64,000 nucleotides of DNA from Ianthella basta. Lineage: Eukaryota; Porifera; Demospongiae; Verongiida; Ianthellidae. A model generated the notes under the pieces. The model was not told where the DNA came from and ran no database searches. It saw only the letters and a list, made by a program, of their open reading frames with translations. Each line of letters opens with the position of its first letter. Position 1 is the stretch's first letter. Shown here in pieces: positions 9,701 through 41,771 of the stretch. The position numbers and the translations under genes were made by a program. The stretch is from assembly GCA_964019415.1 (NCBI GenBank), contig OZ025887.1:949116-1013115 (forward strand), in the 5' to 3' direction.

Positions 9701-12700
9701 CTTATACCACCTCTGATTCACTTATACCACCTCTGATTCAGCTTATACCACCTCTGGCGCTTTAAGGCAAACTATCGACAATGTAGCTGCGACAAGCTTG
9801 GAGCGAAATTAACTTTAGCAACGTTCCGAGGTACTTCACGGCAGCTGGGCTTCGCAGGGTTGTTTCCGTGCAGTTTACGCTGCCGTTTGACTACTTGGCT
9901 ACCTTTTTGTCTTCATTTCTTGGTAGAACTGGCCAGTGCGTTCCTTCCCCGTATTGATGCTGGTTGCTATCATAGTCTAAACACCTTATACCGAGCTCCT
10001 TCGGTGTCTACTGGATTTAGAACACCTAGGAAACCAATATAGAGGCCCGCGCGAAGCGCAAGGACCTCTATAGTAATCGGTTTTCCACGGTGTTCTAAAT
10101 CCCGTAGACACCTCGGATCTTGGTATAACCTATATTTAACCTGCAGCTGCTGCTTCCTCCTGTCCAGCAATGCTACAATGATGGCACAGAGACAGTGGTG
10201 GTGCCCAAAACCTCTGAAGCCAAGGATGGGGCGTGGTTTGGACTCATGAAATATGCCTGGTCTGGGTGAGTGCTGACACGTGAGACTCTACCTATTAGCC
10301 CCGTGCACACCTACTGTACATATGTATGTAGTCTTGTCTAGTGTGCAACTGTTGACAGGCTGCTCCTTTGTGCCTGTTCTATTCTGGGGTGAGTTTGATG
10401 TGTTACGAGGTTCCTTCTTATGTCTCTGCCCACTTGTGTTGAACATAGAATCTGCTCCCATCTGTACTGTACGTTCGGTACTTGCCACGAGTTAGGTACT
10501 TTTACCACAGACTCACTGTATAGGTAAGTTGTGGATGGCAGACTTCTGTTGGCCTTGTACAGGTTAATTCACTGGACAAGCGCATCAAGCGAGTGCACAC
10601 AAACTTTGTGTAGTAAACTGCGGCTTCTTCTGTGTAGCAAACTGCGGCTTCTAGATATGCAGTAGGTTGCTATAGTGAGGTGTCAGGCTATTGTACCATT
10701 ACTACAAGCCTTGGCCATCTGCAAGAAGTGTCCCATGAATCCACAAAACGTTTTGTGGGCATTATGGACACTGGGCACACACACATGGAAACCTGTGATG
10801 GATTACTGCAGAATACGATGGAAAGTGCAACGGTTTGTATTATACCATAGGAGTTTGTTGAGTAGACACATAGCGAATACGGTAGTTTAGTTGATTTGGC
10901 TGTGAAGGTCTTTAACACCAACAAACACAATGTATTAAGGTGTGAGATTGGCCTTACAATACCTTCTTTACCGAATGCTGCACCATGACCACTCACTAAG
11001 TAGCCAAGTCTGCTTGTAACCACAGCAGGCCTTGTCTATGGAATGAATGGCAGTTGTGCTGTTAATCTGAAGTTGTGCGGTGCTTACTAAGTATAGCCAT
11101 AGACTGTGGGGAGATATTGATTGAAAGACCCAACCTTCAAACAAAGAGGGACTATGCACTTAATCTACTGCATATTGTCCGCACACTAATAGTTCCTACA
11201 GCTCCTATTGAGCTGAGTACACGCCTGCTATGTTGTGTTCACTCTTGTATGTTGAGGTCACTGAACATAGATCTCCAACAGCTCTACATAGATCTCTTCA
11301 TCTACAATAGCTTGATTAGCACAAAGGCGCACTTCAATATCATCACCTACTTCCTGTGGGAGGGTCCTGTAGAACCATGGCATCCCAGTCTGGTTGCAGC
11401 AGTTGTTGCCTGGACCACATCCATCACCATCCCACAGTGGGTCTTCAAGAGCAATTCGCCGGTTTTCTTGCCACCGACCAGTAATTCCAGACTCGCAGTA
11501 GTAGTCAACACCAACGAAACTGGGTGGATCTTTACCAGGGTACTTGGCACAGGGGCAGTTGTAGATTCCATTGTTGTAGTCATCAGAGAGTCCAGCAGCA
11601 TACGTCCAAAGATGGTGCCGAGGGGAACCATATGTAAGAGCAATTCCTTCAACATATGCAGTGTTGATATTATTAGAACTATGTGCAAAAGCATCAGGTG
11701 AAACATACTGGTAGCCCCTTGCCTGTCCACAGACCTTGCTGTAGCGAATCCCTTCAGTGGGGTAGGTGACCCCTGAACATCCTGGAGCTGTGAGTCGTCC
11801 ACACAGCTTGGCAGGCGTGTTGATCTGTCGGAGAGAGGTGGGACAGCTAGCTCCTGGTTCGCTCATGTTGAAGTGTGCCAGCCTCATCCACCCTCCTCTG
11901 ATGTTGCAGTAGGTGGTATCCATAGCACAGTAGACCTCCCTGGTCTCAGTGGTAGTGCTCTTCAGCCAGTAGTAGCCGGATTGAGCAGAAGGGTTACACT
12001 GCAGGATCTCTCTGCAAGACTTGGCTGGTTTGTATGAGGACAACCCCAGGGAGCGAGGGCAGGGCAGGTCTTCTGCACTGATGTGAGCAACTTCCTGTTG
12101 GATCTTACCCAATGCTTCTATCATACCATCAGTCTGCTTCTGCATACTTTTCTGTAAGCTAGTAGCAATGTTGCTTAGCTCAGAACAGGCACATGTTCCA
12201 GGTGGTCCCTGTGGACCAGGCATTCCATCCCTTCCTGGGAGACCAGGGAAGACAGGACAGGAGCTGTCAGCCGCTGCTACCAGTGACTCCACTTGGAGCA
12301 GTACCACAAGGGTGCACAGTAGGGCAGTCTTCATTGCACTGTGGAACTTGGCAATTGAACTAAACAGCACAATTAACTCCAAGTCAGGACGAAAGACTTT
12401 GGATGCAAGCACTTAAGCTCTTTATGAAAATCAGTTGCCCTTTGTCAGTATCACGAGTTGGAGAAATCTTACATTTGTTGCATTTGTATGGGACTGTTGT
12501 GGCAGCAGTTTTGAGATCTAATTATGCCGACTGGACCGTGGTAGCTAATCACCCTAATTGCAGGGTTCTAGGGTGTGACCCGACACTGTTTTGCACAGCA
12601 GAGTCACAGATTAGTAATGTGTACATTGGTGGTGACATCACACTATTAGTGGTCCAGCTATTGAACAGCTATGTATTCGGTCACTGCACATGTGTTTCCA

Positions 12701-40688: not shown

Positions 40689-41771
40689 ATGAAGACTGCC
40701 CTGCTGTGCACCCTTGTGGCACTGCTCCAAGTGGAGTCACTGGTAGCAGCTGCTGGCAGCTCCTGTCCTGTCCTCCCTGGTCTCCCTGGAAGAGATGGAA
40801 TGCCTGGTCCACAGGGACCACCTGGAACATGTGCCTGTTCTGAGCTAAGCAACATTGCTACTAGCTTACAGAAAACTATGCAGAAGCAGACTGATGGTGT
40901 GATAGAAGCATTGGGTAAGATCCAACAGGAAGTTGCTCACATCAGTGCAGAAGACCTGCCCTGCCCTCGCTCTCTGGGGTTGTCTTCATACAAACCAGCC
41001 AAGTCCTGCAGGGAGATCCTGCAGTGTAACCCTTCTGCTCAATCTGGCTACTACTGGCTGAAGAGCACTACCACTGAGACCAGGGAGGTCTACTGTGCTA
41101 TGGACACCACCTACTGCAACATCACAGGCGGGTGGATGAGGCTGGCACACTTCAACATGAGTGAACCAGGAGCTAGCTGTCCCACCTCCCTCCGACAGAT
41201 CAACACACCTGCTAAGTTGTGTGGACGACTCACAGCTCCAGGATGTTCAGGGGTCACCTACCCCACTGAAGGGATTCACTACAGCAAGGTCTGTGGACAA
41301 GCAAGGGGCTACCAGTACTATTCAACTGATGCTTTCTACCCTAGTGTCACTGACATTAACTCCTACTATGTGGATGGAATCTCCATCACATATGGGAATC
41401 CACGTCACCATCTCTGGTCATATGCTGCTGGACTCTCTGATGATGGCACCCATGAGGGTGGGGTCTACAACTGTCCCTGTGCCAAGTACCCTGGTAGAGC
41501 TCCCCCTGATTTTGTTGGACAGGACTACTACTGTGAATCTGGAATCACTGGTCATTATCAAGACCACCAGAGAATCGCTCTTGAAGACCCACTGTGGGAC
41601 GGTGATGGATGTGGTCCAGGCAACAACTGCTGCAACCAGACTGGAATGCCATGGTTCTACAGGACCCTCCCACAGGAAGTGGATGATGACATTGAGTTGC
41701 GTATCTGTAGTGATCAGGAATTAGGAAATGAAGAAACCTATGTAGAGCTGTTGGAGATCTATGTTCAGTGA
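40689..41771 (+). CDS. secreted collagen-stub/fibrinogen-like protein (array gene K)
   Basis: An intact single-exon gene of 360 residues. It has signal peptide MKTALLCTLVALLQVESLVA, stub GLPGRDGMPGPQGPPGT and helical segment SLQKTMQKQTDGVIEALGKI, shared with gene A rather than with neighbour J. The C-terminal module ends LLEIYVQ, with loops YPSVTD, GTHEGGV, HYQDHQ and SDQELGNEET. The N-terminal third resembles A and the C-terminal module resembles J, which suggests gene conversion or recombination between members. LRICSD replaces VRLCAN. It is flanked upstream by the SEL1L duplicate and a fold-back element. Confidence 0.88.
   Translation: MKTALLCTLVALLQVESLVAAAGSSCPVLPGLPGRDGMPGPQGPPGTCACSELSNIATSLQKTMQKQTDGVIEALGKIQQEVAHISAEDLPCPRSLGLSSYKPAKSCREILQCNPSAQSGYYWLKSTTTETREVYCAMDTTYCNITGGWMRLAHFNMSEPGASCPTSLRQINTPAKLCGRLTAPGCSGVTYPTEGIHYSKVCGQARGYQYYSTDAFYPSVTDINSYYVDGISITYGNPRHHLWSYAAGLSDDGTHEGGVYNCPCAKYPGRAPPDFVGQDYYCESGITGHYQDHQRIALEDPLWDGDGCGPGNNCCNQTGMPWFYRTLPQEVDDDIELRICSDQELGNEETYVELLEIYVQ

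Follow-up and report, generated by a model that had tools for sequence, protein, structure and literature searches.

A tandem gene family of the sponge Ianthella basta combines four highly variable loops with a framework shaped by exchange between copies

Introduction

In the model of Innan, and in the red and green opsin genes, divergence is low over most of the gene and peaks at the selected sites (PMC3924837). The diversity of snail FREPs has been ascribed to gene conversion together with point mutation (PMC12074976), and the sea urchin SpTransformer (185/333) genes are described as clustered, with allelic polymorphism and a mosaic of sequence blocks (PMC8634487). In sponges, Fibrinogen_C genes shift their expression on microbial cues (PMC6208332) and, in a second species, two fibrinogen-domain genes are raised on symbiont uptake (PMC4144087); neither set is equated here with the family described below. 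Sponge homologs of the coral skeletal protein USOMP-5, with fibrinogen-related subdomains, have also been reported (PMC6824150). Here we analyse a tandem family of putative lectin-like genes found in a stretch of 64,000 nucleotides of Ianthella basta (C20:949116-1013115, hereafter the window; the genome comprises 209 Mb in 96 contigs). We presume USOMP-5 to be a relative of this family. Among the papers listed in our literature searches, none was recognised as describing the family, the nearest being the note on USOMP-5 (PMC6824150).

Results

Ten related genes, each a single frame with no introns, lie at window positions 11,258 to 41,771. Seven are intact and three broken, and two N-terminal fragments accompany them; genes are named below by their first position in the window. 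Anchor motifs recovered 35 open frames from the window and further fetched stretches. Two that lacked an anchor motif were dropped, 33 were aligned, and removal of one exact duplicate left 32 distinct genes, with subfamilies A (10 genes), B (12), C (6) and D (3). Codon counts cover copies with a 200-codon open frame holding the anchor motifs, the number of copies left out being inexact.

The sequence-only reading had described variation as confined to four short loops on an almost invariant framework. All the loop motifs that it listed are present, some of them in broken copies (GESTNN, DRSYLGGR, RTSTTD). Within the C-terminal domain, mean column entropy was 1.20 bits in the loops and 0.39 elsewhere for the seven intact window genes, and 1.48 against 0.59 for the 32 distinct genes. 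Random placement of four blocks of equal size reached the loop entropy in 0 of 20,000 trials for each of three gene sets. Length changes affected 19 columns in the loops and 11 elsewhere (32 genes), and the loops fall between predicted strands. Variation in the loops is therefore above chance, but it is not confined to them: of the 40 columns with the greatest variability, 21 are found outside (33 genes), as are 11 of the 30 most variable in the C20 cluster and 14 of 30 in that on C19. Nor is the framework almost invariant, since no more than 83 of the 228 columns outside the loops are the same in all 32 genes (126 of 228 in the seven window genes). Sequence and length differ as well in the N-terminal collagen and coiled-coil part. 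The initial observation is thus real and partly confirmed, but was overstated.

We then compared silent divergence by region, using only codons that encode an identical amino acid and taking as near those within 8 codons of a loop. Silent differences in subfamily A amounted to 178/324 in loops (0.55), 478/1590 near them (0.30) and 738/4395 far from them (0.17). The same order, loops above near above far, was found in B (181/553, 473/2360 and 866/6770) and in C (25/134, 80/554 and 135/1509). A codon model on a single tree gave grid silent rates of 2.5, 1.7 and 1.0 for A, with twice the log-likelihood difference (2dlnL) at 37.4, a value inflated by recombination. Between B and C, silent divergence per site (dS) ran from 0.62 to saturation over codons 0-95, fell to 0.08-0.33 in the framework of codons 100-250 and was saturated at the end; inside the low block, dS reached 0.52 at loop 1 and 1.70 at loop 3. 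A peak at the loops with lower surroundings is what the model of conversion with selected peaks predicts. Alignment error as the source of the raised loop dS was rejected because loops of equal length and codons for the same amino acid keep the raised divergence: 142/180, 124/264 and 36/60 loop pairs were of equal length, with dS of 0.74, 0.47 and 0.29 in the same order. Likewise, comparisons against B and C, and less clearly those against D, rejected silent constraint as the only reason for the valley that separates loops 3 and 4.

Evidence of exchange came from several sides. When the tree of one segment was imposed on another, approximately unbiased (AU) tests rejected it in 17 of 20 cases for A and in 20 of 20 for B and C together. 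A GENECONV-like test found significant identical tracts in 4 of 45 pairs in A, 2 of 66 in B and 86 of 153 in B+C; three of the four significant tracts in subfamily A cover loop 3. A 3' block is common to different subfamilies. One pair of genes on C19 shares a tract of 1.78 kb with zero mismatches across the coding region, the remainder of the 3.84-kb repeat carrying 27 mismatches, which indicates a recent exchange that took the loops along. Broken copies may join in this exchange, because broken gene 12910-14013 and its intact neighbour 11258-12334 are identical residue for residue in loop 4 and differ in loops 1-3. Regional silent-site differences, conflicting segment trees, identical tracts and the 1.78-kb tract together bear out the earlier suggestion that conversion homogenises the framework, and concerted evolution by exchange between copies is well supported.

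Relatives were taken from three protein searches, as the 120 listed from each (totals 2190, 804 and 3401). Some relatives among the matches listed are identical or nearly so to genes of the present genome, and probably stem from the same species, as a second assembly or haplotype. Three of four such allele-like pairs differ in the loops: the loop columns that differ from the presumed counterpart number 0 for P0001, 19 of 36 for P0002, 23 for P0004 and 11 for P0012. P0012 and gene 40689 are identical in the 5' framework and in loops 1-2 and show 4 differences in 123 in the 3' framework. They differ in loops 3 and 4, and both of these loops in P0012 match gene 33404 save for one residue at the edge of loop 3. 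We also compared 12 C20 genes with 31 proteins of other contigs (listed as 'other species'), hand-picked from the listed matches. Framework identity was higher within (0.84/0.88) than between the sets (0.70/0.82). Pooled loop identity was no closer within than between (0.423, 0.432), which retention of loops across species or simply their saturation could explain. By loops, the nearest neighbour of the 12 genes was in the own set for 3 and in the other set for 6, with 3 ties, a count that favours the larger other set (31 against 11). Taken singly, loops 2 and 4 were slightly more alike within than between; for loop 1 the own-own mean was undefined. For 14 proteins of four contigs, also hand-picked, identity of the 5' half was 0.84-0.95 within B, 0.62-0.89 within C and 0.51-0.79 between, and that of the 3' block 0.77-0.86 whatever the comparison.

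The ratio of amino-acid-changing to silent divergence (dN/dS, omega) was estimated pairwise by the Nei-Gojobori method (NG86). In subfamily A, dS was 0.272, dN 0.062 and omega 0.23 for the framework, against 0.931, 0.522 and 0.56 for the loops. Omega of framework and loops was 0.25 and 0.61 in B, 0.32 and 0.80 in C, 0.25 and 0.97 in D. A custom grid codon model with a separate tree per segment placed the framework well under neutral and found the pooled loops compatible with equal rates (2dlnL of about 1 for A, and of 0 both for B+C and for all genes). In B+C, loop 3 was below neutral (2dlnL 9.0) and loop 2 leaned above it (3.4). Sites at which the amino-acid rate beta exceeds the silent rate alpha with a probability over 0.9, P(beta>alpha)>0.9, numbered 5 with all 32 genes (4 in loops) and 8 in B+C (6 in loops); subfamily A had none with segment trees and 2 on one tree, both in loops. 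Since few sites pass and the pooled loops are near or below neutral, strict positive selection can be local at most. The ratio is biased here by the raised dS of the loops themselves, and we therefore set dN/dS aside as sole criterion; diversifying selection on the loops is plausible.

The COLFI profile (PF01410) matched six of the seven intact window genes at 22.2-25.1 bits, against a gathering cut-off of 26.2, over 49-67 of 233 profile positions; gene 17229 gave no COLFI match at 0.001. All 69 of 69 relatives matched COLFI at E<=0.1, and PF01410.24 is among the protein-database annotations of many relatives, as well as of the proteins encoded by 11258 (P0014) and 22141 (P0007). In the fibrinogen-like subdomain of the family, about 50-80 residues match intelectin and COLFI profiles, with E from 4.5e-5 to 7e-4 and at positions 88-167 only. 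Fibrinogen_C (PF00147) was found in 3 of 69 members (best E 0.0046) and in none of the seven window genes at 0.001. A collagen model matched 23 of 69 members at E<=0.1 (best 0.001), and a short GxxGxx stretch is visible. No immunoglobulin family is among the 13 Pfam families matched by the 69 members, and the loop-bearing part had no Pfam match in the one gene scanned. When a full-length predicted model was searched with Foldseek, the best rows were C-propeptides (E 3e-5) at low TM-score (0.23-0.29 by query) and a root-mean-square deviation of 10-16; intelectin-type lectins stood at ranks 36 and 46 among the matches listed.

The members of the cluster are as follows, loops being given in order from 1 to 4. 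On the minus strand, intact gene 11258..12334 has its loops at 11669-11686, 11561-11584, 11450-11488 and 11291-11320. Its neighbour 12910..14013, whose loop 4 was described above, is broken by one in-frame stop, and 15401..16546, which carries GESTNN and DRSYLGGR, by a single stop together with a frame change close to the 3' end. Gene 17229..18320 is intact and divergent (52% identity to 11258). Intact gene 19876..20985 has loops at 20293-20310, 20179-20208, 20068-20106 and from 19938 downwards. It is followed by intact gene 22141..23241, from which its database counterpart P0002 differs in loops 1, 2 and 4, and by intact gene 24355..25458, the structure query, with loops at 24772-24789, 24658-24687, 24547-24585 and from 24417 downwards, identical to those of counterpart P0001. 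The last element on this strand, fragment 25782..25916, matches family residues 1-45. On the plus strand, fragment 33007..33126 matches N-terminal residues 5-45. Intact gene 33404..34504 has loops at 34070-34087, 34172-34201, 34274-34312 and from 34442. Gene 35603..36689 is broken by a frame change before the loop-bearing part, carries RTSTTD and has readable loops at 36252-36269, 36354-36383, 36456-36494 and from 36624. Gene 40689..41771 is intact, with P0012 as its counterpart.

These limits, 11258..41771, agree with those first proposed, though the family also lies outside the window. It extends to about C20:1,069 kb; the joined stretch C20:1012000-1077999 holds 5000 N, either an assembly gap or a masked stretch. 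A second tandem cluster lies at C19:4.14-4.23 Mb. Inside it, C19:4152000-4164349 and C19:4190522-4202845 form a 12.4-kb duplicate of 98.95% identity with several family genes, which is either a recent segmental duplication or two haplotypes joined in assembly. The motif pattern also pointed to eight loci on C1, C8, C12 and C18, none of which matched the family at 1e-10. The number of members given here is a minimum, and other clusters may be present elsewhere in the genome. Elsewhere in the window, the long frames of a TH-rich repeat at 2818-4393 resemble a tandem repeat more than genes, and 52362-53366 holds a mitochondrial carrier gene in one open frame (PF00153, E 7e-74).

Discussion

We consider it fairly probable that these genes form a lectin-like family in which gene conversion homogenises the framework and shuffles the loops, with selection for loop difference. 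The proteins would consist of a signal peptide, a short collagen stretch, a coiled coil, a fibrinogen-like subdomain of the type common to collagen C-propeptides and intelectins, and a C-terminal beta-sandwich bearing the four hypervariable loops; this architecture suggests that they are secreted and probably trimeric. Several tests support that exchange, by gene conversion and possibly also unequal crossing over, evens out much of the framework and also moves loops, singly or jointly, between paralogs and subfamilies. Selection would favour copies or alleles with differing loops, the loops may form a ligand-binding rim, and the family may recognise microbes, symbionts or self, most likely via glycans. 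A more far-reaching proposal, which we hold only tentatively, is that of an anticipatory recognition repertoire in an early-branching animal. Each of the four loops of one domain would be a germline module of its own, which conversion would carry among paralogs, alleles and subfamilies, with broken copies taking part, and which balancing selection would preserve for longer than the lifetime of a species.

Four results weigh against selection with conversion. dN/dS above 1, which had been expected at the loops, was not found, NG86 giving 0.56-0.97, the pooled codon model about neutral and only a few single sites exceeding it. Silent divergence does not fall steadily with distance, rising again in all three subfamilies in framework more than 60 codons away. 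A placement test restricted to the flanks was weaker, 174, 384 and 375 of 5000 random placements equalling the observation. Loop 2 shows no peak between B and C, its dS being just 0.25.

The main alternative, which we judge rather unlikely, combines relaxed constraint with conversion limited by heterology: the loops would tolerate nearly any change, tracts would stop at the diverged loops, and silent divergence would accumulate with no selection. Pooled loop omega of about 1 and of 0.56-0.97, beside 0.23-0.32 in the framework, is in keeping with this, and the regional silent differences and the richness of the loops in length changes fit it too. Exchange does, however, cross the loops, as attested by the shared tracts over loop 3, the replacement of loops 3 and 4 in P0012 and the zero-mismatch coding tract, and the few sites of P(beta>alpha)>0.9 are mostly in loops. 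Ordinary subfunctional paralogs with no recognition role, such as matrix or skeleton proteins with irrelevant surface loops, would account for the partial likeness to collagen C-propeptides and would agree with the reported sponge homologs of coral skeletal USOMP-5, which have fibrinogen-related subdomains (PMC6824150), but a structural protein would not be expected to have tens of copies, with strongly diverse loops that are exchanged, which makes this improbable. A local mutator raising silent and amino-acid change in the loops would explain their silent rate, 2.5-fold relative to distant codons in grid values, and their A-richness (0.35 against 0.24 in subfamily A), but is very improbable given just 1 of 7 domain mismatches in a loop in a recent duplicate pair (small numbers), 6 of 26 in a second pair of which one member holds a neighbour-copied tract, no dominant substitution type in the loops, and loops that recur between genes.

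Strong loop difference combined with framework exchange is a pattern expected of a recognition repertoire. If the loops are binding sites, the family would offer, on a single scaffold and in an animal presumably devoid of antibodies, a natural collection of recognition surfaces that can be read directly from the genes, and would allow one to ask how a germline repertoire resists homogenising conversion and which loop binds what.

Among known systems, intelectins and procollagen C-propeptides (COLFI) match the family by profile in the fibrinogen-like subdomain; ficolins have a collagen stalk. Mollusc FREPs have an immunoglobulin domain ahead of the fibrinogen domain. Like the snail FREPs, the present family is large and diversified with a fibrinogen-like part; unlike them, its 69 members matched no immunoglobulin family, and Fibrinogen_C was weak in 3 of the 69. 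With SpTransformer (185/333) it has in common clustering, allelic polymorphism and a block mosaic, but the protein is another one, and diversity peaks in short loops of one predicted domain instead of repeat elements. As in the model of Innan and in the opsins, divergence peaks at candidate sites and is low over most of the gene. Unlike the opsins, the sponge family, for which we infer the selection, has many copies and several peaks per gene, and the peaks are themselves exchanged.
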